DNA from: an uncultured bacterium
GTDB lineage: Bacteria > Pseudomonadota > Gammaproteobacteria > Burkholderiales > Burkholderiaceae_D
Direction: 5' to 3'
Length of the DNA: 18,660 bases
NCBI GenBank assembly: GCA_903872555.1
Contig: CAIQLE010000319.1
Location: 1-18,660 of the forward strand
Positions 1,218 through 16,454 of the stretch are shown piece by piece. The notes below the pieces were generated by a model. That model saw nothing but the letters and a program-made list of their open reading frames with translations. It ran no database searches and had not been told where the DNA came from. The position numbers and the translations under genes were made by a program. Position 1 is the stretch's first letter, and every line of letters begins with the position of its first letter.

Positions 1218-2162
1218 TCAGGTGTAGACATCGGTGAATGAAGGCACCGCATCGCCAGTGTGATAGAAGATGCCGGTCCACAGCTTGTCTTCGGTCCAGG
1301 TGGTGACAGGACGATCAGGCTGAGCCAGATAGCCCAGACCAGCGAAGGTCTCGTTACGGTTGCCGCTAGGGTCGAAGAAATAAATCGTCTCGCCGCGCGT
1401 GATGCCGTGACGGGTCGGAGCCACGTCGATCTTGACCTTTTTCTTGGACATGATGTCAGCTGCTTTTAGTACGTCATGCCATGAATCGAGGAAGAAGGAC
1501 ACGTGGTGTATGCCAGCCTTTGCGCCACCGACGAAAGCGATGTCGTGTGGTGTGTTGGTACGGGTCAGCCAGGCTGCAGCCTGAATCGCGCCGCCAGGTC
1601 CGACAGTGACTTGTTCGACCAGATAGAAGTCCAGCACCTTGCAAAAGAACTCAGTATTTTCGGCGACTTTGTTGACACCCGTTTCAGGATTCAGTTCGCA
1701 CATCAGCAGTACATGGTCAACCCAGTGGGCGCCAGCACCCGTGATGTTGTCAGGCCATGGATCAGGGTTAGTCGTGCCGACTTCTGTGCCCACATATTCT
1801 TTCAGTGCATAGAGGCGCATTTCATGGCCGCTAGGCATCTTAAATTGCAGCATACGACCGGTCGCAGGCATGCTGCCTTCAGCCAGTTCTGTGACTTTGA
1901 TACCCGCTGCTTCGATGCGCTGTTTGAAGCTGTCCAGATCGCTGTCTTTCTCGCACTTGTAAGCAACGTGGTTCATGCCGGCCTGATCGGATTGCGTCAG
2001 GATCACGGAGTAACGATCCCATTCGTCCCAGCACTTCAGATACACATTGCCCGACTTGTCTTCCATCGTGACTTTCATGCCCAGCACTTCTGTGTAGTGC
2101 TTGACTGCCGCCGCCATGTCCATGACTTTCAGGCTGACGTGCCCGATACGCATAACACCCAT
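1218..2162 (-). CDS. dmpB: Catechol 2,3-dioxygenase (extradiol, XylE/DmpB type)
   Basis: A 314-residue type I extradiol dioxygenase that cleaves catechol or methylcatechols to 2-hydroxymuconic semialdehydes using Fe(II) and O2. It has two vicinal-oxygen-chelate modules. The ligands aligning with XylE His153, His214 and Glu265 are His150, His220 and Glu271, and the second-sphere residues are His206, His252 and Tyr261. The C-terminal signature [11 protein letters not shown] is intact. It is about seven residues longer than XylE. The start at 2162 follows a strong AGGAG; the upstream ferredoxin stop codon overlaps that ribosome binding site, so translation is probably coupled. It is the last gene of the leftward operon and takes the catechol made by the phenol hydroxylase. 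Confidence 0.96.
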
Positions 2163-2172
2163 TGTTATCTCC

Positions 2173-2532
2173 TCATTTTGTTATAGCAGGTGGGGCAGCC
2201 TGCGCTTGAAACCCCTTGGAAAACGGTTTGATCATCTTGCCTGCCACTTCGAGTTTCACCTCGACGGTGGGTCCTACTCTGCAGGCCAGGGTATAGCCCT
2301 GAGCTTCTTCAGATTCTGTAACGTGGGCACGACTGATCGGCCCGAGCATTTCTGTTTTTCCTTCAATGATGCGCACCTTGCACACCCCGCAGCCGCCGTT
2401 CTCGCAACCGACAGGAATGCCCTTGCGGCCCAGACGCAGCATGCCTTTCAGCAGGCTTTCACCGATCGCGCAGGGATAGGATTCTCCTGTCTGCTCTATG
2501 GTGACCTGTACCTTAGGACGAAAATCAAACAT
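2173..2532 (-). CDS. dmpQ: [2Fe-2S] ferredoxin, XylT/DmpQ-like
   Basis: A 119-residue plant-type ferredoxin. The cluster ligands are Cys43, Cys48, Cys51 (C-x4-C-x2-C) and Cys84. In meta-pathway operons this protein donates an electron to reduce the oxidised iron of catechol 2,3-dioxygenase after inactivation by substrate analogues such as 4-methylcatechol, restoring activity. Its place directly before the dioxygenase gene matches xylT-xylE and dmpQ-dmpB. AGGAAG lies about 8 bp before the ATG. The alanine/proline-rich C-terminal tail after residue 100 looks disordered. Confidence 0.92.
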
Positions 2533-2551: not shown

Positions 2552-3610
2552 TCAGACGCGCTTGAAGAAAGCACTGCGTGGCTTGGAGGCATCAGCGGCA
2601 GTGATGAATTTTTCGGCATACATATCGCGCTCATACAGACGGCCTTGCATCAGCGTCGATAAGCAGGCTTCGATCATCACCGGCGGGCCGCACATATAAG
2701 CTTTGTGCCCTGAGAAATCACCCTTGAAATGATCCTTGGCGGCGTCATGCACATAGCCATGAAAGCCATCGAATCCGGTGGCGTCATCACTCAGTGCAGG
2801 AACGTAGCTGAAGTTGGGATATTTTTCTGCCAGCGCCTTGAATTCAGCGTCGTAATACAGCTCGGCCAGATTGCGCTGACCATAGATCAGCGTGATGTGT
2901 TGCGTGCAGCCCTGCGCCAGCAAATCAAGAATCATGGAACGCGGACTGGACAGACCAGAACCCCCCGCCATGAAAATCATGGGCTCTGTGTGTGAAGTGC
3001 GAACAAAGAAGCGACCATACGGACCCGAGATGCGCAGCTTGTCACCCACCTTGAGTTTGTCATGCAGATAGCTGGTACCGGCCCCGCCTTCGACGATACG
3101 GACATTGATTTCCAGTTCACCCGTGCGTGCAATATCTTCCGGTGAATTGGCAATTGAAAACGGACGGCCACCTTCAACGCCCGGCATCAGCAACTGCACA
3201 TACTGACCCGCCTGAAAATCAATACTTCTGTCGAGCTTGAACCAGATGCCCTTGATGGTCGGCGTCAGCGTTTCAATCCGGCTCACCGTGGTGTCGAAAT
3301 CTTCCACCGGAATGATGCGTGCATCAGGCTCATCATCAATGTCAGCCTCTACCGTGACATCACTTTGCAAGGTTGCACAGCAGGCCAGCGTCTTGCCTTC
3401 ATCACGTTCAAAATCCATCAAGGCAAAAGGATTCGACACACCGTGGTCGACATGGCCGGCACTGACTTCTACTTTGCAGGTGCCACACAAACCATGACCA
3501 CAGGCATGAGGAATATAAATACCCTGACGAAGAGCGGCATCCAGTATCGTCTGTCCGTCCTCCACTTCAATCGTGGCACCCAGAGGTTCAATGGTCAGTA
3601 ACTGAGACAT
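2552..3610 (-). CDS. dmpP: Phenol hydroxylase reductase component (P5)
   Basis: A 352-residue NADH-dependent reductase that passes electrons through FAD and a [2Fe-2S] centre to the diiron oxygenase. The N-terminal ferredoxin domain has Cys37, Cys42, Cys45 and Cys77. The FAD-binding domain shows RPFSIAN (149-155), and the NAD domain has GGSGLSSPRS (216-225) and CGPP (307-310). Length and domain order match DmpP. Only one reductase gene is present, so it must serve whichever oxygenase copy is active. The start at 3610 gives the normal family N-terminus, although the ribosome binding site is weak. It lies 22 bp after dmpO copy 2. Confidence 0.96.
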   Translation of the reverse strand: MSQLLTIEPLGATIEVEDGQTILDAALRQGIYIPHACGHGLCGTCKVEVSAGHVDHGVSNPFALMDFERDEGKTLACCATLQSDVTVEADIDDEPDARIIPVEDFDTTVSRIETLTPTIKGIWFKLDRSIDFQAGQYVQLLMPGVEGGRPFSIANSPEDIARTGELEINVRIVEGGAGTSYLHDKLKVGDKLRISGPYGRFFVRTSHTEPMIFMAGGSGLSSPRSMILDLLAQGCTQHITLIYGQRNLAELYYDAEFKALAEKYPNFSYVPALSDDATGFDGFHGYVHDAAKDHFKGDFSGHKAYMCGPPVMIEACLSTLMQGRLYERDMYAEKFITAADASKPRSAFFKRV

Positions 3611-3632: not shown

Positions 3633-4031
3633 TTAAAACGCCTGACGACCTTCGGACACCGTCACCCGACTGCCTTCGAGTGCCGGTGTGCGAAAACGGA
3701 TCAGTGTCTTGTGACCGAGTCCGTGATGCTCCAGTGATTTGCCGACGTCAGGAATGAAGCGCTTGTCCGAGTTGAACCACTGCGTACGCTTCCAGTCTAT
3801 GGATTCGAATTCAGGATGCTCGCCATATAGATCGGGCAGCACATCCCGAATCAGTGCACCGAAAGGCAGGGTCGGTGGCAAAGGCACGCACAAAGGTGCA
3901 GCAAACATCAGATGGTTTTCCCAGCACAGGTAAACCAGCCGCTTGCCATGAAACAGACTTTCGTCGTCTTGCTGGCGCAGCGGATAGTCACCCAGGTGCT
4001 TCATATCATCCTCAAGGCGGGGACTGGACAT
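3633..4031 (-). CDS. dmpO: Phenol hydroxylase small subunit (P4), copy 2
   Basis: A 132-residue gamma subunit of the (LNO)2 oxygenase. The conserved core runs from about residue 31 (L-V-Y-L-C-W-E-N-H-L-M-F) through LYGEHPEF and ends at RFRTPALEG. Compared with copy 1 it has a longer N-terminus and a different C-terminal tail, SRVTVSEGRQAF, in place of the usual short Gly-Ser-Cys ending. Its ATG overlaps the stop of dmpN copy 2 by one base (TAATG), so the two are probably translated in a coupled way. The pairing implies that N2 and O2 form one alpha-gamma unit. Confidence 0.92.
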   Translation of the reverse strand: MSSPRLEDDMKHLGDYPLRQQDDESLFHGKRLVYLCWENHLMFAAPLCVPLPPTLPFGALIRDVLPDLYGEHPEFESIDWKRTQWFNSDKRFIPDVGKSLEHHGLGHKTLIRFRTPALEGSRVTVSEGRQAF

Positions 4032-5599
4032 TATTTGTCTCCGTGTTCCTGAGGCTTCATGCGACCGCTCCAGGCCTTGAAGTGTTGACGGTCTTCGCTG
4101 GAAGCGAATTCACCATTGTCTTCACCGCCCTTGATGCCGTAGTAGCGAATCACTTCACGCACCGGGCTGTCACCAGGTGATGCAGGATTGATCTCGTCTG
4201 GATAGCAGGCACCCTGATAGATCTGGTGCACAGGCAGCCATGCCTGTACATACTTGCGTGGCTCATGATCAAAAATCTCTTTGCAGTGGTCGCTGCAGAA
4301 GTGATATTTCATGCCGTGGTAGCTGCTCTCGCGGAAACTGATCTGGGTCGGATCGCCTGGCTCAGTGAAGAGCATAGGCACCTGACAGGTCTGGCACAGC
4401 ATAGGCAGGATCTGGTTGTACCAGCGGCCTTCATCACCTTCTGCCTGTTCGCCCCAGTGTTCCAGACGTGCGCGGTAGTGACGGTCAAAGCTGTCCGGAT
4501 ATTTGCTGGCCAGCCAGTCGAGTTCATCCTTGCTTGGAATCCAGGTATGGAATGCCGCAGCGTGACCGTATTGATAGAAGGTCGCCCAGGCCTGATGGCT
4601 GATGTGATTCTTACCTTCGCAGGCATCATCCCAGCCCTTAGGCTTGCGAATGCCATAGCGCGCCAGATCAGCAAACAGTGCGCCGCCATTCGATTCGGCA
4701 TACATTTCCCATGCTTCTTTCCAGCTCATCACACGCTTAGGCAGCATGTAATCCTGCATCATCGCGACCAGAGTCAGCAGGCGATAGCCACGCCAGAACC
4801 ACTTGTCCATCCAGCGCTGCACGATAGGCACGTTGGCAGGATCTTGTTCGAGCATGAACTTGATGCACTCAATGCCCAGGGTCATGTGACGTGATTCATC
4901 CGACTGTGCCGAGAAACCAAAGGTGACTGTCGACAGATCGCCATTGTGTGCAGCGCCGCTCATGAAGGGCACGAACAGCAGGTTGGTCAGTACATATTCA
5001 AACGAGAAGCTGACGGCAGTCAGGAACTCGAAAGGGCCGCCCGAATACGCATCTTCAAAGAAGCTCTTAGGCACCGACAGATACCAGACATTGTCGAACC
5101 AGTGGTTCGCATTGTGCATGCCGTTGTAGTACTTGTTGTAATGCGAGATGGCGTGGGTTTCAGTCTGGAAGTGACGCAGTTCATCGACCGCCTGCATCTG
5201 AGAAGCCACGCGTGCACCGGCACCGGTGAATTGACGGCCTACGTGAGCAAAGCCACGGTGAGCGTAATACTCCAAGGGAGTCACGCCCTGAATGAAAAGC
5301 TTCAGTGCATTGATATAGCGCGCATCGGTCACGCCGAGTTCACCATGGTTCTGCGCAAACGCTTCAATCACGGCGTAGAGTTTTTTCTCTTTCTCGGCCT
5401 GATATTTCCAGTACGCGTCCATGGTCAGACGGAACGGGTCTTCCCATTTGTCCCAGTCATGAATCTTGATGCCTTCGTATTTATCGAAGGGGAATACTTT
5501 GTCCATGGGCTGATAGGTGGTTTCCCAGTGCAGTCCGCGGGTCATGGCGGCATAGCGCTCTTTCAGGCCCAGTTTCTTTTTAGTGACACGTGTGTCCAT
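4031..5599 (-). CDS. dmpN: Phenol hydroxylase large (diiron) subunit (P3), copy 2, catalytically intact
   Basis: A 522-residue alpha subunit of a soluble diiron monooxygenase that hydroxylates phenol to catechol. All six iron ligands are present: Glu110, Glu140 and His143 (first site) and Glu201, Glu235 and His238 (second site), matching Glu106, Glu136, His139, Glu196, Glu230 and His233 of the OX1 phenol hydroxylase within a shift of four or five. The active-site Thr205, four residues after Glu201, is also present. The structural zinc cysteines are Cys402, Cys405, Cys435 and Cys439. The C-terminal stretch from about residue 470 differs from the usual phenol hydroxylase ending. GGAG precedes the ATG at 5599. 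It lies between the transporter genes and dmpO copy 2 and is the likely working catalyst of the operon. Confidence 0.96.
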   Translation of the reverse strand: MDTRVTKKKLGLKERYAAMTRGLHWETTYQPMDKVFPFDKYEGIKIHDWDKWEDPFRLTMDAYWKYQAEKEKKLYAVIEAFAQNHGELGVTDARYINALKLFIQGVTPLEYYAHRGFAHVGRQFTGAGARVASQMQAVDELRHFQTETHAISHYNKYYNGMHNANHWFDNVWYLSVPKSFFEDAYSGGPFEFLTAVSFSFEYVLTNLLFVPFMSGAAHNGDLSTVTFGFSAQSDESRHMTLGIECIKFMLEQDPANVPIVQRWMDKWFWRGYRLLTLVAMMQDYMLPKRVMSWKEAWEMYAESNGGALFADLARYGIRKPKGWDDACEGKNHISHQAWATFYQYGHAAAFHTWIPSKDELDWLASKYPDSFDRHYRARLEHWGEQAEGDEGRWYNQILPMLCQTCQVPMLFTEPGDPTQISFRESSYHGMKYHFCSDHCKEIFDHEPRKYVQAWLPVHQIYQGACYPDEINPASPGDSPVREVIRYYGIKGGEDNGEFASSEDRQHFKAWSGRMKPQEHGDK

Positions 5600-5652: not shown

Positions 5653-6420
5653 TCAGAGGCCGACTGCTTCACGGTCACTCACAGGGAAATAAGCCAGATG
5701 CAAAATCTCAGGGTTGTCACGCAGCTTGCCGGGTTCGCCGTCATACGACACACGACCGCGCGACATGACATAGGCATGATTAGCCAGTGCCAGCGCCAGC
5801 TGAGTAAACTGTTCAATCAGCAGCACACCGATGCCGCTGGCAGCAATGCGGCGAATCACCGGCACCAGACGTGCCACGATGGTGGGGGCCAGTCCAAACG
5901 ACAATTCATCGATCACCAGAAAGCGCGGTGAGACGATCAGTGCCTGTGCCAGCGCCACCATTTGCTGCTGACCACCGGAGAGATCGCCGGCAGCGTGTTG
6001 CAAACGTTCTTTTAATTCAGGAAAGAGTTCCAGTGTGCGGTCGATGGATGCATTCAGTTCACCGCGGCTCAGACCGCCACCGGCCACCAGCAGGTTGTCG
6101 CGTACCGTCAGTTCACGCAGCACCTGATGACCTTCGGGTACGGTAGCGACACCCAGACGGCGGATTTCATCGGCCTCCATGCCCACCATGTCCACGCCAT
6201 CCAGCCAGATCTCGCCGAAGGCAGGTTCCACCACTCCGGCAATGCCTAACACGGTGCTGGTTTTGCCGGCACCATTCGGTCCCATCAGCGCAGTGATCGC
6301 TCCGGGTGCAATTGAAAGTTCGATCGCATGGGTGACAGGCTTGGTACCGCGCACCATCACCAGATTTTTGATCTCGAGATGATCATCACGCAAATTGGCA
6401 GGTCGAATCTTGGCACTCAT
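5653..6420 (-). CDS. ABC transporter ATP-binding protein, LivF type
   Basis: A 255-residue cytoplasmic ATPase of the branched-chain amino acid (HAAT) transporter class. Walker A is GPNGAGKT (47-54), the signature LSGGQ (147-151) and Walker B FLVIDE (167-172). The switch-loop residue is Gln204, as usual in LivF proteins (E-Q). It starts with ATGA overlapping the stop of the LivG-type gene and has a good GGAGG ribosome binding site. Gene position suggests that the system imports an aromatic substrate or metabolite; the substrate itself cannot be read from the sequence. Confidence 0.93.
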   Translation of the reverse strand: MSAKIRPANLRDDHLEIKNLVMVRGTKPVTHAIELSIAPGAITALMGPNGAGKTSTVLGIAGVVEPAFGEIWLDGVDMVGMEADEIRRLGVATVPEGHQVLRELTVRDNLLVAGGGLSRGELNASIDRTLELFPELKERLQHAAGDLSGGQQQMVALAQALIVSPRFLVIDELSFGLAPTIVARLVPVIRRIAASGIGVLLIEQFTQLALALANHAYVMSRGRVSYDGEPGKLRDNPEILHLAYFPVSDREAVGL

Positions 6421-7148
6421 GCTGCGGCCTCCAGTTCATCAAAATTACCCAGATAGGCCTGTTGCACTTCAGGTTTTTTCAGCACTTCTAGTGTCGGTCC
6501 GAGGGCCAGCAATTTGCCGAAGTCCAGCACCATGGTTTCAAGACAGCAGGCTGAAATCAGTTCGACATCGTGGTCGATCAAAAAGACTTGCGCCTTGCAA
6601 TAGGCAGGAATGCCCTTGATGACTTTTTCCAGATGTTCCGATTCGGTTTCACTCATACCGGCACCGGGTTCATCCAGCATCACCAGTTTCGGGCTGCCTA
6701 TCAGTGCTTTCGCGATTTCTGCCAGATGCCGTTCTTCCGTCGACAAATCACTACCGCGCCGGTTCAGGCGGTGACTCAGGCCGACAAAATCAATCGCACC
6801 CATGATGGCTTTAGTTTCTGCTGCACGGCTGTCAAAGCGCACATGGTCAGCAATTGCCATCACGTTTTCCAGCAGCGTCAGATCTTCTGCGATCTGGTCT
6901 GTCTGAAACGTGCGGCGCAAGCCCATGTCAGCGCGCTTGTGAGCCGGTATGCCTGTGATCAGTTCGCCATTCACTTTGACCCAGCCTTCTCTGGGCTCGA
7001 CAAAGCCAGACAGCACATTCAGCAGCGTGGTTTTGCCGGCACCGTTAGGGCCGATCAGACCCACCACCGGTTTGGTCAGATTGACGGTCAGGCCATCGAT
7101 GGGTTTGACGCCACCGAACTGCACACAAAGATTATGAATTTCTATCAT
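6417..7148 (-). CDS. ABC transporter ATP-binding protein, LivG type
   Basis: A 243-residue ATPase partner of the LivF-type protein. Walker A is GPNGAGKTT (33-41), the Q-loop is Gln82, Walker B LVMLDE (155-160) and the H-loop His193. The ABC signature reads LSTEE (135-139) instead of the usual LSGGQ or LSYGQ form, so the two glycine/glutamine positions that contact nucleotide are altered. That suggests asymmetric ATP sites in the LivF-LivG pair, with the site using the LivG signature being weak. It starts 14 bp after the long LivM-type permease gene. The ribosome binding site is only a weak GAGAG. Confidence 0.92.
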   Translation of the reverse strand: MIEIHNLCVQFGGVKPIDGLTVNLTKPVVGLIGPNGAGKTTLLNVLSGFVEPREGWVKVNGELITGIPAHKRADMGLRRTFQTDQIAEDLTLLENVMAIADHVRFDSRAAETKAIMGAIDFVGLSHRLNRRGSDLSTEERHLAEIAKALIGSPKLVMLDEPGAGMSETESEHLEKVIKGIPAYCKAQVFLIDHDVELISACCLETMVLDFGKLLALGPTLEVLKKPEVQQAYLGNFDELEAAA

Positions 7149-7162
7149 CGCTGTGCTCTCAA

Positions 7163-8644
7163 TCAGCGGTAGGCTGCAAAAGGTTTGGGATAGCGCTCAT
7201 CGAGACGCTGACGCAAAGGAAGGATGGCAGGGTAGAGCGCCAGTTCGATCAGGAAGCGCAGTCCTATCGCAGCCCAGATGATGGTCACAGCGAACATGAA
7301 ATCCACATCGAAAACACCCCAGGCAACCCAGCCCACAAAGCAACCGATGAAAGCCACATTCAGGCCGCGCTTGAGAATGCGGTGATCTGCAACGCCCCCT
7401 AGCGCTTCAATCACGCGTGACAGACGCAACGAAGCGGCGGCTTCCATATCTTCGGCAAAATCCTGTACGCGTTTGCCAAAGAAACCCAGTAGCAACCAGC
7501 ACACACCGGGAATCGCTTGTCTGAACAGCAGAGCGATCAGCGTAATGAACAAGGTGCCTGCGAAACCGGCATAGCCATAATGCGAAGCTGCAAGTGCAAA
7601 GCCGACCGAAATTACGCCCCAGATGATGGAGCCTTCGACGATGCGGCTGACACGTACAAATTTATAGAAATCGGCCAGCTGACCGGCCAGACCTTTGCGG
7701 CCCTGAATCAGAGAGACCAGTAAGGCAAAGCCATAAAACGCATTCGCCAGATTGCCGTCCACACCGTGATCATTCAGCAGTGCAGGCAGGGCACGAATCA
7801 ACAGACCGGCAAACACCGCGCCCATCCAGTGATAAGAACCACCGACAATGGTCAGTGCATACAAGAGTATCGACTGACTGGTCGGGAAGCCCGTATTGTC
7901 GAGCTGACCATTCAGGCCCGCGATCAGGCCACCTGCCAGACCAGCCAGTGCACCACCAATGGTGAAGGCAAGTGCTTTGTAACGCACCACGCTGACACCG
8001 GCAGCAATCGCAGCCGCTTCACTCTTACGGATCAGTCCCCATGCACGGCCGGGCAGGCTGGCACGTGTCCATTCGATCAGTGCCATGCCGATGGCAAGCC
8101 AGAACATCACATACTGGAAGTAGGCCGTATCACTGCTGGCTATCCACGGACGCTGAATCAGGGCACGCTGACCATTGCTGACATGTCCGGCCCAGCCAGG
8201 ACCACCATCCGGAAAGCCGATCACATTCACCACCACCTGGAAGGCGGCAGCCACCATCAGCGTCAGGAGTGCGAGGTAGAGACCGCGCATACGCAGAGCA
8301 GGCAGGCCGACGATCAGTCCGAACAGACCGGCGATGATGGCACCGAGTATCAATGCCAGTTCGAAAGGCATACCGGTGCCGTGCACCAGCCTCAGGCAGA
8401 ACCAGCCGCCTACACCCGTGAGTGCAAACTGCGCCAGTGACACCATGCCCAGCTGTCCATACAGCAGCGAGACGGTACCTGCAACCAGCGTCAGACAGGC
8501 GACGGTGCTGAAAGTATTAAGCCAGTAAGCTGAAAACAGGTGCGGTCCTATCAGTGCCACCACCAGAAAGGTGATCAGCATGGGACGCAGACGCTGTAAG
8601 GGCGTGCCTGGAGGAATATCGGGTTTATCTTTAGTACGGGCCAT
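7163..8644 (-). CDS. ABC transporter permease, LivM type with extra C-terminal membrane domain
   Basis: A 493-residue inner-membrane permease. Residues 1-323 look like an ordinary LivM protein, including a Y-G-Q-L-G-M-V-S-L-A-Q-F motif near 62-73, a family-typical LRMRGLY (117-123), the coupling-helix region around 199-240 and the usual end near Lys-Gly-Leu-Ala-Gly at about 317-321. A further 170 residues follow with four hydrophobic stretches (about 337-355, 359-389, 428-446 and 447-475) separated by a charged helical segment (about 391-425). Normal LivM proteins lack this part. I do not recognise the extra domain. The start at 8644 is 6 bp after the LivH-type stop, with GGAG inside the end of that gene. 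Confidence 0.9.
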   Translation of the reverse strand: MARTKDKPDIPPGTPLQRLRPMLITFLVVALIGPHLFSAYWLNTFSTVACLTLVAGTVSLLYGQLGMVSLAQFALTGVGGWFCLRLVHGTGMPFELALILGAIIAGLFGLIVGLPALRMRGLYLALLTLMVAAAFQVVVNVIGFPDGGPGWAGHVSNGQRALIQRPWIASSDTAYFQYVMFWLAIGMALIEWTRASLPGRAWGLIRKSEAAAIAAGVSVVRYKALAFTIGGALAGLAGGLIAGLNGQLDNTGFPTSQSILLYALTIVGGSYHWMGAVFAGLLIRALPALLNDHGVDGNLANAFYGFALLVSLIQGRKGLAGQLADFYKFVRVSRIVEGSIIWGVISVGFALAASHYGYAGFAGTLFITLIALLFRQAIPGVCWLLLGFFGKRVQDFAEDMEAAASLRLSRVIEALGGVADHRILKRGLNVAFIGCFVGWVAWGVFDVDFMFAVTIIWAAIGLRFLIELALYPAILPLRQRLDERYPKPFAAYR

Positions 8645-8650
8645 CGGGCT

Positions 8651-9535
8651 CTACTCCAAGTGGCTGTTATCACGCGACAGACCAATGCCATGGCGCTGTT
8701 GCCACAACACGGCCAAGATTGCGACGACGAAGGCCGTAGCCGAGCCGTAGCGCTGTACCGCTGGCATCAGGTTGACCATGGATTCAATCACGCCGATTGC
8801 CAGGCCACCCAGTACCGTCGCGGTCAGGGAATTCATTCGTCCCACCATGGACGCAGCCATCGCAGGAATCACAAGAAAGGTCAGTACCGTAGGATTCAGC
8901 CTGACCATATTGCCCATGAACAGACCGCTCACACCAGCAAGCAGTCCGGCCAGAGTCCAGGCCCAGGTGTCTACGTTTTTAATACGAACGCCCACAATGG
9001 CGCTCAGGGTGCGGTTACTTTGTAAAGCACGCATGCGCAGACCTAAGGAGGTTTTTGCCAGCAGCCACAACATGCCAAAGGTGGCGAAGGCAGCAAACAA
9101 CAGGGCTGCAACGCGGGTATGACTGATTAAGCGACGGCCATCAAATTCGATGCCATCCGAATCAGTAGGCAAAACTAAACGGCGTGGGGTATCGCCCCAG
9201 TACCATTGAGCGATGCCCATGATCATCAAGGCAAAACCGAGTGTCGCCATGGCGCGCACTACTCTGTCCTGATGCGTGAGTGAAGGAGCGATGTAACGAC
9301 CATAGCTCCAGGAGAGCAGGGTGGCTGAGCCTATGCCAGCCATCCAGCCCATCCAGTCTGCGTACTCCAGGTCGATCACCTGCCAGCACACCATGGCGGC
9401 TAAGCCACCTAATGCACCGTACGCAAAATTCACCACACCGCTGGCGCGGTACAGCACCACCAGGCCTACGCCTGAGAGTGCGTACACCGCGCCAACGCTG
9501 ATGCCAACGACGAGGAAAGGAAGCAGTGTTTCCAT
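8651..9535 (-). CDS. ABC transporter permease, LivH type
   Basis: A 294-residue inner-membrane permease of the HAAT class with about eight hydrophobic segments. The N-terminal G-x-x-x-G-A-V-Y-A-L-S-G-V-G-L motif and G-V-V-N-F-A-Y-G near residues 33-40 are typical of LivH. The ATPase-coupling region is near residues 164-203, with G-L-R-M-R-A. Length is normal. It sits between the binding protein and the LivM-type permease, the usual order for these systems. The ribosome binding site before 9535 is not strong. Confidence 0.93.
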   Translation of the reverse strand: METLLPFLVVGISVGAVYALSGVGLVVLYRASGVVNFAYGALGGLAAMVCWQVIDLEYADWMGWMAGIGSATLLSWSYGRYIAPSLTHQDRVVRAMATLGFALMIMGIAQWYWGDTPRRLVLPTDSDGIEFDGRRLISHTRVAALLFAAFATFGMLWLLAKTSLGLRMRALQSNRTLSAIVGVRIKNVDTWAWTLAGLLAGVSGLFMGNMVRLNPTVLTFLVIPAMAASMVGRMNSLTATVLGGLAIGVIESMVNLMPAVQRYGSATAFVVAILAVLWQQRHGIGLSRDNSHLE

Positions 9536-9574
9536 GTTCTACCCGGTTTGCCTTTATTTATAACAATGTGACGA

Positions 9575-10825
9575 TTAGTTGACCAAACCGCCCTTGGCTT
9601 CGAGGGACAGCACATCGCTGAGCTCGGAGTCTTTGGACTGATAGCATTCGGTCAGTGTCTTGAAGCCACCTGGGATCAGGAGAGCAGCACGACCTTTGTG
9701 GTTAGGCTGGTGACGCTCGCCGCTACCGAAGTACCAAGGCGAACACATCATGTCGGTCTTCCACTTTTTGGTATTGGCAATCGCGGTGTAAGCAGACTTG
9801 CGATCCACATTGCCCTTGATGCTCAGCAGCGCATCAGTGACAACACGTGCCGACAGATAGCCAGCTTGCGAGAAGGTGTCACGTGGATCCTTCTTGTCGC
9901 CGAACTTGTCCATCACCGCTTTCCAGTTTTTATTGTCTGGACCTTCGCCATCCATAGGCTCAAGTTCCATGTGCACGTTCAGCTTGTTGTGCCAGTACTT
10001 GCCCACAGCCTTAGGCATGTCAGCGTGATAGGCCGAGGTAGGCAGACCCCACTTGGCTGATTTGCCCAGATCTTGCTGCTCAGCGGCCGTCAGAATTGGC
10101 AGCATCATGCCGCGTGGCATACCCAGCACAACGCCTTCGCTTTTGGCTGCAGCGATTTGCAGTGCAATCGCATTGCCATCGAGTTGGCCCGGATCAAAGA
10201 TTACGGTCTTGACAGGAATGCCAGCTGCTTTGCCGTAGCTTTCAACGCCACCGCAAACCCAGTCACCAAAACCAGGAATGCCAGGAGCGACGCAAGTCAG
10301 GCTCTTGAGCTTGTAGGTTTCGACGATGTACTGAGCAGCACCCAGCGTCGACTGACGTGGACCCTGATTGAAGGAGACATAATTTTTACCGAAGAAGCAG
10401 GCACGTGGAACGCCCACACCTGATACCGAAGCAACGCCTTCAGCGGCATACAGATTATTATTAGCGCCGCATTCGACGAAGCTCGAAGAGCCTGCCATCG
10501 CAACCACTTTGGTGTCTTTCACCAGCTTGTTGGCAGCCTGTGAGGCTACTTCAGGATTCCAAGTGTCATCCTGAACGGTGTAAGCGATAGGGCGGCCGTT
10601 GATGCCACCGTTCGCATTGACGCACTTGAAATACGCATCTGCTGCACGGGCCGAAGACGAAAAGTCTTCTGGTCCGGTTTTGCCGACGATAGCGCCGATC
10701 TGGATAGGCTCGCCCGAAGCTTTCTTGCCATTACTCAAACCGCACTTTTCGTCAGCCATCGCGCTGCTGGCCATCATTGTCAAGGCCACGGCGATTGCGC
10801 TGCCGAGGTAGGTAGTCTTCTTCAT
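9575..10825 (-). CDS. ABC transporter periplasmic substrate-binding protein, LivK/HAAT class
   Basis: A 416-residue exported protein. The signal peptide covers residues 1-24, with cleavage expected after Ala-Met-Ala before Asp25. The mature part begins with I-Q-I-G-A-I-V-G-K-T-G, the first strand of type I binding proteins that recognise amino acids or aromatic acids. The mature protein has eight cysteines (28, 68, 119, 143, 178, 191, 361, 394), many for the family, so disulfides are possible. Aromatic-degradation clusters often contain such proteins for benzoates, cinnamates or phenolics, so an aromatic ligand is likely by context only. GGAG precedes the ATG. It starts the transporter block, 104 bp after dmpO copy 1. 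Confidence 0.92.
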   Translation of the reverse strand: MKKTTYLGSAIAVALTMMASSAMADEKCGLSNGKKASGEPIQIGAIVGKTGPEDFSSSARAADAYFKCVNANGGINGRPIAYTVQDDTWNPEVASQAANKLVKDTKVVAMAGSSSFVECGANNNLYAAEGVASVSGVGVPRACFFGKNYVSFNQGPRQSTLGAAQYIVETYKLKSLTCVAPGIPGFGDWVCGGVESYGKAAGIPVKTVIFDPGQLDGNAIALQIAAAKSEGVVLGMPRGMMLPILTAAEQQDLGKSAKWGLPTSAYHADMPKAVGKYWHNKLNVHMELEPMDGEGPDNKNWKAVMDKFGDKKDPRDTFSQAGYLSARVVTDALLSIKGNVDRKSAYTAIANTKKWKTDMMCSPWYFGSGERHQPNHKGRAALLIPGGFKTLTECYQSKDSELSDVLSLEAKGGLVN

Positions 10826-10929: not shown

Positions 10930-11286
10930 TCAGCCGCAGGAGCCGTGCAATCCTTCTAATCCGGGTGTTCTGAAACGCAGCACCGATTTATGTCCAAAGC
11001 CGTGTTCTGCCAGCGTGCCCTGCATATTTGGCGTGAACATCACGTGACTGCGGAACCACTGCACCTTGCTCCAGTCGATGATGGCGAATTCAGGGTGTTC
11101 GCCATACAGCGCAGGTAGCACCTCATGTACCAGTTGCTCAAAGCGGGTTGACATGGAAAGCGGCACTGTCAGAGGTGCACTGAACATCATGTGTTCGTCC
11201 CAGCCCACATACAGCAGAGGCTGTGCAAAGTGAGCGACGCTGTCATGCGTAGCGAAGTCATAAGTTCCGATAGCGGTCACGCTCAT
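10930..11286 (-). CDS. dmpO: Phenol hydroxylase small subunit (P4), copy 1
   Basis: A 118-residue gamma subunit of normal DmpO length. The core reads L-L-Y-V-G-W-D-E-H-M-M-F, then LYGEHPEF and RFRTPGLEG, and it ends in the usual Gly-Ser-Cys-Gly. Its ATGA start overlaps the stop of dmpN copy 1, and a perfect AGGAGG stands seven bases before the ATG inside the end of dmpN1. It shares the core blocks with copy 2 but differs at both ends, so the duplication is not recent. It would pair with the altered copy 1 of dmpN, or with copy 2. Confidence 0.93.
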   Translation of the reverse strand: MSVTAIGTYDFATHDSVAHFAQPLLYVGWDEHMMFSAPLTVPLSMSTRFEQLVHEVLPALYGEHPEFAIIDWSKVQWFRSHVMFTPNMQGTLAEHGFGHKSVLRFRTPGLEGLHGSCG

Positions 11287-12845
11287 AGCTGAGCCTCCTG
11301 CATGTCTTGTCCGCCGCCCCAGTTCTCGAAATGGATGTCGTCTTCCGATCCCTTAAATTCAAGGTTGTCGCGGCCTGCATTGATCTGACAGAAATCGAGC
11401 ACAGCTGCATCTGCATCGAAACCGGCTGCTTTGCTATCGGCATCCTGAGCAAAGCACTGTCCCTGCAGAATCTGATGCACGGGCAAGTTCGCCTGCACAT
11501 ATTTTTCAGGCTCGTTGACGAAGATGTCTTCGCAATGCGCACTGCAGAAATGGAAGGTCTCGCCGGCATGCTGAGTTTCGTGATACGCGGTACGTCGTGG
11601 ATTACCTTGCTCCGTGAAGATCATGGGCATCTGGCAGGTCTGGCATTGCATCGGCAAGGTCTTGGTGTAGTAACGCTTGCCTTCTGCCTGACGCTGGGCG
11701 TAATGCTCCAGACGCGGACGATAAAAACGCTCAAAACTGTTGGGATATTTTTTATTCAGCCAGTCCAGTTCAGACGCTTCCGGCACCCAGGTATGGAAGG
11801 CGGTGGCATGGCCGTAGCCATAGAAAGCATTCCATGCCTGATGGCTGATGTGATCTTTGCCATCGCAAGCCTGCTGCCAGCCTTTAGGTTTGCGTATGCC
11901 GTAATGCGCCAGATCTTTAAACAAAGCTTCGCCAGCCGGCTCGACATACATCTCCCAGCTTTCTTTCCAGCTCATCATGCGCTTGGGCAGCATGTAGTCC
12001 TGCATCATGGCCGCCAGCGTCATCAGACGATAGCTGCGCCAGAACCATTTATCTATCCAGCGCTGCACCGTGGGCAGATTGCCAGCGTCCTGTTCCAGCA
12101 TGAACTTGATGCACTCCAGACCCATGGTCATGTGACGCGTGGTGTCAGATTGTGCGTTGAAGCTGGTAATCACCAGAGAGAGATCGCCGTTGTGTGCGAC
12201 ACCGCTCATATAAGGCACGAACAGCAGATTGCTCAGCAGCGTGTCGAATGAAAAGCTGATCGCGACCAGACGCTCGAAAGGACCGGCGCTGAAGGCATCT
12301 TCCTGAAAGCTTTTAGGCGCGGCGAGGTACCACAGATGATCAAACCAGTGAGCAGGGTTGTGCATGCCATTGAAGTACTTATTGAAGGTGCCCATGGCAT
12401 GAGTCTGAGTCTGAAAATGACGCAGTTCATCGGCTGATTGCATCTGACAGGCCATGCGCAGTCCGTCGTCGCGCATGTGACGCCCAAGGTGGGCGAAGCT
12501 GCGGTGCGCATAATATTCCTGCGGTGTCACAGCCTGTATGAACAGCTTGAGCGAATTGACATAGCGTGCATCGCTCACGCCCAGCTGACCATTGTTCTGG
12601 GCAAAGGCCTCAATCACGGCGTAGAGCTTTTTATCTTTTTCGCCCTGTGCTTTCCAATACGCTTCCATGGTCAGACGGAAGGGATCTTGCCAGCTGTTCC
12701 AGTCACGGATGGTGATGCCCTCATATTTATCGTGAGGGAATACCTTGTCCATGGGCTGGTAAGTCGTGTCCCAGTTCAGGCCATGCGACATCGCCGCATA
12801 GCGTTCATTCAGACTGAGCTTTTTTTTCTCTACGCGCTTGTCCAT
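11283..12845 (-). CDS. dmpN: Phenol hydroxylase large subunit (P3), copy 1, with degenerate diiron site
   Basis: A full-length (520 residues) homologue of dmpN; 46 of the first 60 residues match copy 2. The first-iron ligands Glu110, Glu140 and His143 are kept, as are His238 and the zinc cysteines of the C-terminal domain. The other second-iron ligands are lost: Glu201 is Asp and Glu235 is Thr (AQSDTTRH where copy 2 has AQSDESRH). The active-site Thr205 is Ser. The nucleotide sequence around 12131-12170 gives this reading without ambiguity. The overall fold, subunit contacts and C-terminal tail look normal, and the tail is closer to the classical DmpN ending than that of copy 2. It is not a simple pseudogene, because the frame is intact. 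It may be an inactive partner, a regulatory subunit or an enzyme with changed chemistry. Translation may be weak, because a small hairpin abuts the ATG. Confidence 0.95.
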   Translation of the reverse strand: MDKRVEKKKLSLNERYAAMSHGLNWDTTYQPMDKVFPHDKYEGITIRDWNSWQDPFRLTMEAYWKAQGEKDKKLYAVIEAFAQNNGQLGVSDARYVNSLKLFIQAVTPQEYYAHRSFAHLGRHMRDDGLRMACQMQSADELRHFQTQTHAMGTFNKYFNGMHNPAHWFDHLWYLAAPKSFQEDAFSAGPFERLVAISFSFDTLLSNLLFVPYMSGVAHNGDLSLVITSFNAQSDTTRHMTMGLECIKFMLEQDAGNLPTVQRWIDKWFWRSYRLMTLAAMMQDYMLPKRMMSWKESWEMYVEPAGEALFKDLAHYGIRKPKGWQQACDGKDHISHQAWNAFYGYGHATAFHTWVPEASELDWLNKKYPNSFERFYRPRLEHYAQRQAEGKRYYTKTLPMQCQTCQMPMIFTEQGNPRRTAYHETQHAGETFHFCSAHCEDIFVNEPEKYVQANLPVHQILQGQCFAQDADSKAAGFDADAAVLDFCQINAGRDNLEFKGSEDDIHFENWGGGQDMQEAQL

Positions 12846-12888: not shown

Positions 12889-13158
12889 TCAGTGCTTCCA
12901 GCTCAGAGTGAATTCGTCATCATCCTCATCCAGATTGCCGGACAGGGTGACGAGATTGATTTGCAGTTGCTGCAGGTCGTATTTGCGGCCTATCTGTTCT
13001 TCAATCGTTTCGCGACGAATCACCAGTCTGCCCGGGGCATCAATTTTCACCAGACCCGGTGAATACACCACGGTTGCCTCCGGGTTGTCGGCCACGATGG
13101 CATCGACGATGGGGCGAGATTCTTCGTTGGCCTGAAAGGCGATGAAGACGTTGGACAT
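12889..13158 (-). CDS. dmpM: Phenol hydroxylase activator (coupling) protein (P2)
   Basis: An 89-residue cofactor-free effector protein that binds the oxygenase and is needed for turnover. It matches DmpM in length and pattern: V-F-I-A-F-Q near the start, L-V-I-R-R-E-T-I-E-E in the middle and G-N-L-D-E-D-D-D-E-F near the end. AGGAG lies eight bases before the ATG. It is the only copy in the window, so it must work with either dmpN copy. It lies 36 bp after dmpL and 43 bp before dmpN copy 1. Confidence 0.96.
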   Translation of the reverse strand: MSNVFIAFQANEESRPIVDAIVADNPEATVVYSPGLVKIDAPGRLVIRRETIEEQIGRKYDLQQLQINLVTLSGNLDEDDDEFTLSWKH

Positions 13159-13194: not shown

Positions 13195-14193
13195 TCAGAT
13201 GCTCAGACCGGCTTTGCCTATCCGTACATTGATCGCTGTGCCAACCGCCTTCAAGGCTTCCTGACCTTTATCGCCGAGAGCGATTTCAGCCACTGGTGCC
13301 AGCGCTGCCTGCACACGTTCTGTCCATACACGCGCCCACTCTGAGAGCAAGGCCTTGTTTTCTTCTGATTCAGCAGCAGCGGCTTTGATGACGCTATCGA
13401 CCCAGCGTATGCTTTCGTCATGCCACTCAGGCATAAAGGAAGTCAGCATTGCAATCGCACTGCCGCCCATCAGCGTCAGGTGCTCATCAACGTAATTGCC
13501 GTAAATGAGTGGGTAGAGCTGTCCGTCCAGCGCGAGATTTTGCGCGACAAACATTTCCATCGGATCTTTGATGACCAGCGTGTCTTCCACCAGACGGCGC
13601 AGCACTTGCCAGCGCGGGTCATTCAGCCAGTCGTTCTTGCCTGCGTCCAGTACACCCGGCTCATCGACTGCCAGACCTAAGCGCGTCAGATATTGCGCAA
13701 TGCCCAGATGATCCATGGAGTGGAAAGTGGTGGCCGCCGTCAGCGCTGTGCCGTAGCCATACGCCGCGATGAAGCAGTTATTCATATTGCCGGCCCAGGC
13801 CACATGACGCAGTGGCATCAGCACCTGACATGCACTGGCGCGGACTTCATCCGACATGCGTGCCAGCAGACCGCGTGAATCGACGAACTGATAATTCGCC
13901 TCGACCGCTTCTTGCTGACGCGCGCGAGCCATGGTCCAGGTGGCGTAGTAATACTGGCGCGGATCTTTCAGTACATACCAGTCCGCCAGTTTGATGGCCG
14001 AGCGCGAGGCATCAAACAATTCATATTGGGGTTCCCAGGTAGGACGATAGTGAAAGTTCTGAGTGGGTTGAGCACCCAGCGTCGCTTCCTGATAGCGGGT
14101 AGCAGGCTTATCGCCACCGATATAACGCGCCACATGGGTGAAGGTATTGCGCGTCGGTTTAATTTCTTTGGCCTGAAGGTCAATGCTCGTCAT
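13195..14193 (-). CDS. dmpL: Phenol hydroxylase beta subunit (P1)
   Basis: A 332-residue beta subunit of the (LNO)2 oxygenase; it lacks the iron ligands and supports the alpha subunit. Recognisable blocks are KPATRYQEA near residue 30, FHYRPTWEPQ near 48, DPRQYYYA near 78 and W-x-D-E-S-x-R-W-V-D near 255. Length is as for DmpL. The start at 14193 lies inside the end of dmpK (14-bp overlap) and has a good AGGAG before it. There is only one copy, so both dmpN products would share it. Confidence 0.95.
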   Translation of the reverse strand: MTSIDLQAKEIKPTRNTFTHVARYIGGDKPATRYQEATLGAQPTQNFHYRPTWEPQYELFDASRSAIKLADWYVLKDPRQYYYATWTMARARQQEAVEANYQFVDSRGLLARMSDEVRASACQVLMPLRHVAWAGNMNNCFIAAYGYGTALTAATTFHSMDHLGIAQYLTRLGLAVDEPGVLDAGKNDWLNDPRWQVLRRLVEDTLVIKDPMEMFVAQNLALDGQLYPLIYGNYVDEHLTLMGGSAIAMLTSFMPEWHDESIRWVDSVIKAAAAESEENKALLSEWARVWTERVQAALAPVAEIALGDKGQEALKAVGTAINVRIGKAGLSI

Positions 14194-14464
14194 GGTTCTC
14201 TCCTAACTTGTCACCCACGGCCTGCGTGAGGAATTCCACTTGGTTTTTTGAACAAAATTCATTAAATGAAGGCTCTGGCAAGACCAGCTCTACCGACATA
14301 TCTGGCCAGCCCACTGAAAACTCGAAGGCCACCAGACCATTCGGACGGCGCTCGGTCACACGTACAAAGCGGCGCTGCAGAGTGGCTGCATCGGTATTGA
14401 TCGAGTCCAGAACCGACACATGCGGCACCTCTGGAAGCGGGTTTTTGGATTCGGACTCGGCCAT
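14180..14464 (-). CDS. dmpK: Phenol hydroxylase assembly protein (P0)
   Basis: A 94-residue protein of the DmpK/TomA0 family. DmpK is not needed for catalysis in vitro; it is thought to help make the oxygenase active, probably at the iron-loading stage, and it inhibits turnover when in excess. The core reads R-F-V-R-V-T-E-R-R-P-N-G-L-V-A-F-E-F, followed by an acidic C-terminus. It is the first gene of the operon, about 43 nt after the expected sigma54 start. An in-frame stop lies two codons before the ATG, which fixes the start. The nearest ribosome binding site-like AAGGA is somewhat far from the ATG and is part of a small hairpin (14480-14492). Confidence 0.9.
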   Translation of the reverse strand: MAESESKNPLPEVPHVSVLDSINTDAATLQRRFVRVTERRPNGLVAFEFSVGWPDMSVELVLPEPSFNEFCSKNQVEFLTQAVGDKLGENHDEH

Positions 14465-14518
14465 GATCTAAAGTATTTTCCTTATAACAAGGTATTGCTA
14501 TCTGGTATAACTCCATAG

Positions 14519-14533
14519 GCAATTGCCGTGCCA
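14519..14533 (-). promoter_or_regulatory. Sigma54 (-24/-12) promoter of the phenol hydroxylase operon
   Basis: The minus strand reads TGGCACG, four bases, then TTGC: an essentially perfect match to the sigma54 consensus with correct GG-N10-GC spacing. Transcription should start near 14507. Together with the divergent DmpR-type gene, this is the equivalent of the Po promoter of the dmp operon. Confidence 0.92.
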
Positions 14534-14777: not shown

Positions 14778-16454
14778 ATGAATCACACACCCATCCCACC
14801 CTTACCTCAAGACGCCGATCTGCGCAGGCTGGTGCATTTTTCGGCCAGTGACGGTCGAATCTGGCTGGCTGGCCACAGGATGCTCTTGCTGCATGTGGAG
14901 GCTTTGGGGGGCTTGCGGCGGGAATTGATGCAGACCATAGGCACCGAACAAACCCGCCGCGTGCTGAAGCGGACAGGCTATGCCTCAGGTAGCCGGGATG
15001 CAGCGCTGGCGCGGCAGGTAAGGCCGACTGCTACGGCCTATGAACAATTTGCCGTGGGTCCCCAGCTGCATATGCTTGAGGGTGCAGTTCAGGTTACGCC
15101 CCAGCACTTTGAGCTGGATCTGGAGACTGGCCGGCATTTAGGCATTTTTCGCTGGGATCATTCCTGGGAAGTCGACACCCATGTAAAGCACTTCGGTCCT
15201 CAATCCGACCCCGTGTGCTGGATGCTCTGTGGGTATGCCTCAGGTTATGTGAGTGCCTTTATGGGCCAGCCCGTGATCTACAAAGAAACCCAGTGCAGCG
15301 CCTGTGGCCATGATCATTGCGTGATCGAAGGACGTCCCTTGAAAGACTGGCCTGATGCAGAGCAGCTGCAGGAAGACTATGAAGCTGACTCTATGCTGGT
15401 GCGCATGGAAGATCTGCATGCTGAGCTGGAGAGCCTGCGTATTTCGCTCAATCCCAGTGACGATCTGGGTGAATTGATAGGGCGTTCTAAATCATTTACT
15501 ACCGCGATTGATTTGCTGCGCAAGGCCGCCAACACACAAGTCACCGTCATGCTGACCGGTGAGACCGGTGTCGGCAAAGAACGCTTTGCACGCACCTTGC
15601 ATGGCATGAGTCAGCGCTCTGATAAACCTTTTGTCGCAGTCAATTGCGCGGCCTTGCCGCATGAACTGATAGAGAGTGAATTATTTGGTGCCGAGAAAGG
15701 CGCCTATACCGGTGCCGGCGTGGCAAGACAGGGACGTTTCGAGCGCGCTGATGGCGGTACTTTATTTCTGGATGAATTAGGTGACCTTCCTTTATCGGCA
15801 CAGGCCAAGCTCTTGCGAGTGCTGCAGAATGGTGAAGTCGAACGACTAGGCTCGACAGCTGTGCGCAAAGTGGATGTGCGTGTCGTAGCAGCCACCAATG
15901 TTGATCTCGAAGCTGCGGTAGCGGCGGGTCGTTTCAGGCGTGACCTGATGTACCGCCTGAATGTCTATCCGATCGCCATTCCGCCTTTGCGCGAGCGCGT
16001 GGAAGATATAGAACCACTCGCAAATCATTTGCTGAATCAATTCATGGCGCAACATAACAAGCGCGTTGCAGGTATTACTGACCGCGCACTGGACGCCATG
16101 CGCCATTACCCCTGGCCCGGCAATGTGCGTGAACTTGAAAATCTGATCGAGCGCGGACTGATCGTTGCTTCTGCCGGACAGATGGTGGACGTGGAAGATT
16201 TGTTTGCTTTCCCCTCCGGTACACAGGGCATCACCGTGAATGCTTCGGGTGAATTACAGCAAAGCGTGGCGCCCGATGTTGATTCATTATTTGATGAATT
16301 GCAGCGACGCGGTCTCGGTCTGGAAGGACTGGAAGATGCACTGATACAGGAAGCCGTGATGCGCTCGGGCGGCAATCTTTCTGCTGCAGCTCGCGCGCTC
16401 GGACTGACCAGACCACAACTGAGTTATCGCCTGCAGCGCATGAAAGATAAGTAG
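14778..16454 (+). CDS. dmpR: Sigma54-dependent phenol-sensing activator, DmpR/XylR/MopR type
   Basis: A 558-residue enhancer-binding protein. The N-terminal V4R sensor domain (about 15-190) keeps the residues known in MopR with a constant shift of eight: phenol contacts His98 and Trp126, and zinc ligands Cys147, Glu170, Cys173 and Cys181. A linker (about 195-232) follows. The AAA+ domain has Walker A GETGVGKE (261-268), the sigma54 contact loop as GAYTGA (308-313; Tyr for Phe, a common variant) and Walker B with Asp332-Glu333. The C-terminal Fis-type helix-turn-helix is at about 533-555. Phenol binding should release repression of the ATPase and activate the divergent operon. The next Met is at residue 35, inside the conserved domain, so the ATG at 14778 is the right start. 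Confidence 0.96.
   Translation: MNHTPIPPLPQDADLRRLVHFSASDGRIWLAGHRMLLLHVEALGGLRRELMQTIGTEQTRRVLKRTGYASGSRDAALARQVRPTATAYEQFAVGPQLHMLEGAVQVTPQHFELDLETGRHLGIFRWDHSWEVDTHVKHFGPQSDPVCWMLCGYASGYVSAFMGQPVIYKETQCSACGHDHCVIEGRPLKDWPDAEQLQEDYEADSMLVRMEDLHAELESLRISLNPSDDLGELIGRSKSFTTAIDLLRKAANTQVTVMLTGETGVGKERFARTLHGMSQRSDKPFVAVNCAALPHELIESELFGAEKGAYTGAGVARQGRFERADGGTLFLDELGDLPLSAQAKLLRVLQNGEVERLGSTAVRKVDVRVVAATNVDLEAAVAAGRFRRDLMYRLNVYPIAIPPLRERVEDIEPLANHLLNQFMAQHNKRVAGITDRALDAMRHYPWPGNVRELENLIERGLIVASAGQMVDVEDLFAFPSGTQGITVNASGELQQSVAPDVDSLFDELQRRGLGLEGLEDALIQEAVMRSGGNLSAAARALGLTRPQLSYRLQRMKDK

Follow-up and report, generated by a model that had tools for sequence, protein, structure and literature searches.

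The window analysed here, an 18,660-nucleotide contig (CAIQLE010000319.1) from an uncultured bacterium of the Burkholderiaceae_D, carries a phenol hydroxylase operon with two genes for the DmpN/PhN-type alpha subunit. One of them, N1 (11283..12845, minus strand), has an altered diiron site; the other, N2 (4031..5599, minus strand), encodes a canonical alpha subunit of 522 amino acids that keeps all six metal ligands and Thr205. We judge it somewhat probable that N1 is a pseudo-alpha subunit, which folds, shares the beta subunit L with the active N2 and perhaps enters mixed complexes. This reading is drawn from the graded loss of ligands among relatives of N1, the unchanged N2 twin, purifying selection, the single copies of L and of the effector component M, and a conserved gene order. 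In the mechanism we propose, the split operon would make two alpha subunits, of which N2 stays the oxygenase, and N1, released from catalysis, would be turning into a non-catalytic subunit. It would still bind L and the gamma subunit O1, most likely within a mixed hydroxylase that joins N1-L-O1 to N2-L-O2, or it would lend N2 structural or assembly help. In proteins further along this series, Lys110 may fill the space and charge of the lost iron. Both the pairing of N1 with N2 and the order of the losses are what we infer from the sequences.

The N1 frame (12845 to 11283 on the minus strand) is open and encodes 520 amino acids. An initial annotation of the window had proposed that N1 keeps E110, E140, H143 and H238, that it has Asp at 201, Ser at 205 and Thr at 235, and that the second copy keeps every one of these residues. 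Alignment with the reference, PhN of Pseudomonas sp. OX1 (3u52/2inn; phmmer, query residues 7-510), and the codons bear this out, with E201D, T205S and E235T in N1 and all seven residues intact in N2. Codon 201 is GAC (12243..12245, minus strand), at a place where 111 of the 119 N1 matches listed have Glu; codon 205 is AGC (12231..12233, minus strand; Thr in 116 of 119) and codon 235 is ACC (12141..12143, minus strand; Glu in 114 of 119). These counts cover matches other than the window's own protein, and the protein searches give the best 120 of 1374 matches (N1 query), of 1403 and, with the N1 protein of locus L100 as query, of 241. Because ACC differs from GAA and GAG in all three bases, a single base error is excluded at codon 235. 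The six-ligand pattern E-E-H-E-E-H of a catalytic diiron alpha subunit is broken by D201 and T235, and the active-site Thr205 is Ser. Since the second-iron site is without E235 and has D201, with the first-iron ligands whole, window N1 may coordinate a single iron, or two weakly, and may have little or no oxygenase activity; it may represent an intermediate at an early stage, with iron still held.

N1 matches PF02332 (202 bits) and the C-terminal YHS/zinc region (35 bits). It retains cysteines 401, 404, 434 and 438, the zinc cysteines, which together with the open frame agrees with the initial annotation. Its AlphaFold model, built from an input of 101 rows, has a mean predicted local distance difference test (pLDDT) score of 81.1, with residues 1-3, 218-231 and 515-520 below 50; a 12-row input gave a pLDDT of 52 and was set aside. 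The predicted fold is that of PhN overall, with template modelling (TM) scores of 0.89/0.93 to 2inp_A at 55% identity. Compared with the DmpN/PhN alpha subunits (2inn, 2inp, 3u52; 54-55% identity), N1 therefore shares fold, length, zinc cysteines and the K, L, M, O and P components of a phenol hydroxylase operon, and it differs in the three substitutions and in having a second, canonical alpha gene behind an ABC transporter. The C-terminal tail, previously called canonical, proved otherwise: WGGGQDMQEAQL differs from the N2 tail and is common to N1-like proteins, some canonical ones included. The sequence for its final EAQL (window 11283-11300) contains a ribosome-binding-like AGGAGG and runs into the ATG of O1, so conservation of the tail may be partly translational.

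Graded ligand loss beside an unchanged twin

The alpha ligand table holds 260 rows, of which 208 are canonical and 52 changed; the changed rows comprise N1-like proteins, near-copies of the same locus, the fragment L018 and the N2-like P0117, which has H238Y only. The main clade that holds window N1 has 41 rows (Shimodaira–Hasegawa-like approximate likelihood ratio test, SH-aLRT, 80). At position 110 these rows carry K in 31, E in 6, N in 3 and S in 1; position 201 is acidic in all (D in 28, E in 13); position 235 has T in 20, A in 9, V in 7, S in 1 and E in 4; H143 is kept in 38 and H238 in 40. Within this clade lies a Lys subclade of 35 rows (SH-aLRT 100) with Lys at 110 in 31, Asn in 3 and Ser in 1, with T, A or V at 235 and a variable position 140. 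One of its members, P0148, has lost both histidines as well (KAQDSTY at positions 110, 140, 143, 201, 205, 235 and 238, the order used for all ligand strings below). Closer to the window, P0002-P0005, 74-76% identical to N1, carry D201 only, and P0009 (72%) carries D201 together with S235. Loss of ligands is thus common to the relatives of N1, as for a pseudoenzyme, and the nearest relatives share the loss in part only. The exact Asp/Ser/Thr set, which the initial annotation had suggested seeking elsewhere, does recur but is rare: beyond the window, only P0192 (EEHDSTH), 60% identical and from another lineage, has it among the matches listed. A fixed general order of losses was considered and rejected, since P0171 and P0178 are without E235 yet keep E201, and P0169 and P0170 show the opposite.

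Changed alpha subunits are not confined to the main clade. P0027 (AEHDTAH) and P0150 (EEHDSAH) are placed among canonical proteins in the tree, and a single clade of all 43 changed rows, in a set that predates a second family represented by L100 and leaves that family out, was rejected (approximately unbiased test, p 0.0038); ligand losses in alpha subunits are therefore of more than one origin. The second family has N1 genes at L100:3274-4722, near 11069-12526 in L154 and from 3515 in L155. The search with the L100 protein, which scored 7995 candidates sharing most words, brought 55 new proteins among the matches listed: 29 canonical, 18 of the second family (P0151-P0168, 50-93% identical to L100 N1, one of them annotated Limnohabitans) and 8 others (P0169-P0172, P0175, P0178, P0179 and P0192). 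The 18 proteins keep E110 in 18/18, H140 in 16/18, H143 in 18/18, K235 in 15/18 and H238 in 17/18. At least three changes of state, losses or gains, are required by the starred branches of the wider tree, in which no single supported fork unites the window group (support 92) with the Lys clade (99). Long branches may pull the second family toward the window clade, and its placement is unsure; the roots of the trees are likewise unsettled. Near-copies of one locus (e.g., P0002/L003/L029), P0117 and L018 were dropped before the trees were built, and the wider tree was also thinned at 88% (changed rows) and 82% (canonical rows). Separately, P0192, P0178 and P0171 make up a lineage of their own, with EEHDSTH, EEHESTH and EEHESAH, respectively.

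The changed N1 genes stand beside a twin that has stayed intact. N1 and N2, 66% identical to each other, are the sole two alpha matches in the assembled genome of the window. Within its genus, 8 of 21 genomes hold a phenol hydroxylase alpha gene, and all eight have the order K-L-M-N1-(O1)-ABC transporter-N2-O2-P-Q-B, four of them without a contig break. In the genus of the second family, the N1/N2 pair occurs in 3 of 84 genomes, with the same order as far as the contigs reach (3/3); one of these genomes has its alpha genes on different contigs. N2 is without a changed ligand in all ten genomes whose changed N1 is completely readable (seven of the window genus and three of the second-family genus), so that each has a canonical paralogue in the same genome; the N2 of G013 starts after residue 110, at a contig end. 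The L and M genes of this type occur once each in 8/8 genomes, if a remote monooxygenase in G020 is set aside, and as L is single copy, it presumably serves both N1 and N2. That second, remote multicomponent monooxygenase of G020 (L113, G020:C65; L022) has alpha, beta and effector components 27%, 24% and 29% identical, respectively. In a sample of the family, 35 of 392 genomes have an alpha match; 27 of these lie outside the genus, and the 22 read are canonical (22/22).

Some split operons carry two alpha genes that are both canonical (L023, L028, L032/L098 and L039). Across all split operons, the N2 genes fall into a single clade (12 rows, SH-aLRT 100) and the N1-slot genes do not; the split layout therefore seems to have arisen once as far as N2 is concerned, and in some lineages another gene may have come to occupy the N1 slot. 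A scheme of duplication before loss was dropped, because the N1 genes of the operons with two canonical alpha genes fall outside the window clade.

Selection, constraint and competing explanations

In two close pairs of the Lys clade, the ratio of nonsynonymous to synonymous substitution rates (dN/dS, NG86) is 0.046 and 0.057 for N1 (dS 0.79 and 1.03), 0.009 and 0.023 for N2, 0.031 and 0.025 for L, and 0.044 (dS 1.77) and 0.075 for O1. N1 of the second family gives 0.089 at dS 0.38, and its N2 gives 0.014. The window lineage offers distant, near-saturated pairs only, among them window N1 with the G010 fragment (0.056; 122 codons, dS 2.3). A one-omega codon model over five genomes yields 0.078 for N1, 0.029 for N2 and 0.087 for O1. 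N1 is therefore under purifying selection after the loss of its site, and this selection is strong, though weaker than on N2. A ratio near 1, which the initial annotation had named as contrary to a maintained protein, is contradicted, and N1 is maintained by selection as expected of a pseudoenzyme. The earlier proposal of a maintained pseudo-oxygenase is well supported by the graded losses, the low dN/dS and the unchanged twin, and the overall interpretation is partly supported.

Constraint was compared between 32 Lys-clade and 68 canonical proteins, with the seven ligand-table positions excluded because the rows had been chosen by them. Entropy rises by 0.56 bit at positions 101-150 and 195-250, which contain the ligands, against a mean of 0.06 elsewhere, and falls by 0.28 bit at 321-440 (p 1e-7 and 1e-13). 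Of 253 positions that are near-invariant in canonical proteins, 150 are unchanged in 90% or more of the Lys clade, and the zinc cysteines are kept in 32/32. The clade has also acquired near-fixed residues of its own: K110 (28/32), S205 (31/32), D206 (32/32, versus Asn in 68/68 canonical proteins) and K239 (31/32, versus Met in 68/68). We read these patterns as suggesting a core without metal, stabilised by charged residues, in a protein that keeps part of its C-terminal half; the subunit contacts of Lys-clade N1 may be preserved. A further statement, that canonical relatives are invariant at the seven places, was discarded because it is circular, the canonical rows having been chosen by that very pattern.

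Several explanations compete with a pseudo-alpha subunit. N1 might be a working diiron oxygenase with altered tuning, in which D201 acts as a ligand, water or another group stands in for E235, and the substrate is perhaps another phenol. The window protein keeps E110, E140, H143, D201 and H238, selection on N1 is strong, and ToMO T201S variants have solved structures, according to structure titles; the T201S variant of ToMO is active. Yet relatives lose E110, E140 and even H143 and H238 (P0148), N1 proteins of the same genus with K110 and Q140 are under purifying selection, and 235 is Glu in almost every N1 match listed. As relatives without ligands remain under purifying selection, the gene does not need its metal site, and we regard a tuned oxygenase as unlikely, if still worth some weight. 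A little less likely is a protein that binds a single metal and performs new chemistry, for which the second family offers the model: E110, H140, H143 and H238 would make up a mononuclear site of the 3His-1Glu kind, K235 occupying the place of the former second iron. Both the conservation of this pattern in P0151-P0168 and the second-family dN/dS favour it; however, the site is known as a residue pattern, and the Lys clade is without such a set, position 140 being E, Q, L, N, A, T, M or S. For window N1 itself, nothing points to the new chemistry that the initial annotation had also entertained. We give about the same small chance to N1 serving as a decoy or regulator: by sequestering L, M or P, it would set the amount of active N2 enzyme. 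N1 does lie nearer the likely promoter than N2, and L and M are single copy, but the stretches that we take to include part of the M docking surface are among those that have lost constraint.

Two simpler explanations fare worse. N1 is the least conserved large gene of the operon (57-77% identity to the window copy, versus 88-96% for N2), and its omega is approximately 2.5 to 5 times that of N2, as might be seen in a decaying gene too young to have lost its frame. None of the matches listed has an internal stop, however, and the close pairs with dN/dS of 0.046-0.089 have members that share the lost ligands; with values so far below 1, decay was ruled out as a working explanation and keeps only a very slight probability. 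A sequencing or assembly error is the least credible of all. The assembly is in 413 contigs, and fully normal proteins exist at 71-73% identity, which the initial annotation had regarded as a possible sign of error. Such relatives are indeed found (P0006-P0008), but no error is indicated: P0002-P0005 have D201, P0009 has D201 and S235, E235T takes three base changes, and the protein cluster P0001 comprises 7 sequences on 2 contigs. Error was ruled out on these grounds.

A number of observations nonetheless count against a pseudo-alpha subunit or weaken the case for it. The series of losses is not smooth: P0006 (73% identical to N1) and P0007 and P0008 (71%) are fully canonical, the nearest relatives of window N1 keep E235 and T205, and some Lys-clade members carry E201. 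Five of the six ligand places in N1 are still filled by metal-capable residues. Genomic context covers the loci (L handles) and not the P proteins. In more distant or near-saturated pairs, N1 dN/dS is higher than in the close pairs: 0.067 between window N1 and G014 (dS 2.2), 0.122 between window N1 and G001 (dS 2.6), and 0.094 between G010 and G014 (122 codons). Entropy in the Lys clade also rises at 41-80 (0.50), 281-300 (0.70) and 441-480 (0.59), so that the loss of constraint is not confined to the metal site, and the two sets compared, picked by ligand pattern, differ in mean identity (71.6 vs 78.3%). If part of these further stretches is the M docking surface, as may be the case, N1 would not be handled as a working alpha subunit is. 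O1 is missing in 3/3 second-family operons; a full N1-L-O1 protomer is therefore not general. Finally, the N1-slot genes of different genera form no single clade, and in L028, L032 and L039 they are placed close to single-copy genes.

The pseudo-alpha reading could be widened, though we hold this extension to be rather improbable: the N1 slot would have been rebuilt several times beside a working twin, once toward a Lys-filled, metal-free core in the window clade and once toward a conserved 3His-1Glu/Lys site, with window N1 as a living intermediate. If so, the single-metal site of the second family may carry chemistry new to multicomponent monooxygenases.

Parallels among known systems

One parallel lies within the same enzyme. 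The beta subunit L is a metal-site-free paralogue of the alpha subunit, with the same PF02332 family and fold relation, and the metal-free beta subunit of these monooxygenases probably stems from a like event long ago. In two alignments, L carries Arg at the place of E110 (50/50 with MAFFT) and Asp at that of E201 (47/47 with a letter), the kind of shift seen as K110 and D201 in relatives of N1; because L and N align weakly (hhalign probability 3%, E 0.014) and hmmsearch gives no significant match between them, this parallel is a lead only. L is deeply diverged from the alpha subunit, whereas N1 remains close to N2. Yeast Rnr4 is a dead paralogue that heterodimerises with a live one into an active complex.

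Further parallels come from published reports. PaaC of the phenylacetyl-CoA epoxidase is a structural paralogue that pairs with the diiron catalytic PaaA of the same fold (PMC4498308); PaaC and PaaA are 17% identical and their complex has been solved, whereas the N1 pairing is proposed from sequence. The trypanosome prozyme is a dead paralogue that heterodimerises with a live one into an active complex (PMC6221367); for the prozyme, as for Rnr4, the heterodimer is demonstrated, and for N1 it is conjectural. In class Ie R2e proteins (VPK/QSK), three metal-binding Glu residues are replaced, one of them by Lys (PMC11846895), which recalls K110 of the Lys clade; window N1 has no Lys there and keeps E110, and so does not resemble class Ie in this respect. 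R2e stays active via a DOPA residue (PMC11846895), and loss of ligands is therefore no proof of loss of function.

Among the titles and opening lines of abstracts listed by open-access searches, none describes a phenol hydroxylase operon with an alpha paralogue whose diiron site has degenerated. A graded series under selection shows the dismantling of a metal site while fold and operon remain, and makes the old question of the origin of the metal-free beta subunit testable with present-day proteins. Furthermore, metagenome counts that take dmpN-like genes as phenol hydroxylases include copies with broken sites.

Locus layout and neighbouring genes

On the minus strand, the genes follow in the order dmpK, L, M, N1, O1, ABC transporter, N2, O2, P, Q and B. 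K (14180..14464, PF06099) is a phenol hydroxylase subunit, L (13195..14193, PF02332) is the beta subunit, and M (12889..13158), the regulatory or effector component, matches an effector-subunit model weakly (26 bits vs a cut-off of 150). O1 (10930..11286, PF04663), whose ATG overlaps the N1 stop, is a DmpO-type gamma subunit, and O2 (3633..4031, PF04663) is the gamma subunit adjoining N2. P (2552..3610) is the ferredoxin/FAD reductase component. Q (2173..2532, probably ferredoxin-like and DmpQ-like) and B (1218..2162, by its sequence probably catechol 2,3-dioxygenase-like) hold conserved positions on the same strand.

Upstream of dmpK by approximately 54 bases lies a sigma-54-like promoter, TGGCACGGCAATTGCC (14518..14533, minus strand, 1 mismatch). 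The pattern is not enriched (19 matches vs 16.7 expected from shuffles), and this site is plausible by its position and by the presence of a MobR-like sigma-54 activator (14778..16454, plus strand; NF041906, 567 bits, under its cut-off of 999). The plus strand also carries a GntR regulator and a putative hydrolase.

Between N1-O1 and N2-O2 lies a branched-chain-amino-acid-type ABC transporter (5653..10825, minus strand) with a binding protein, two permeases and two ATPases, one of the ATPases being named by sequence alone. A complete ABC transporter of this type in this position, inside the phenol hydroxylase operon and between the alpha genes, is seen in several genera, and it may import an aromatic substrate. 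In L023 (11988-13268), the gene for the transporter's binding protein appears as two open reading frames, perhaps through a frameshift or an assembly error.

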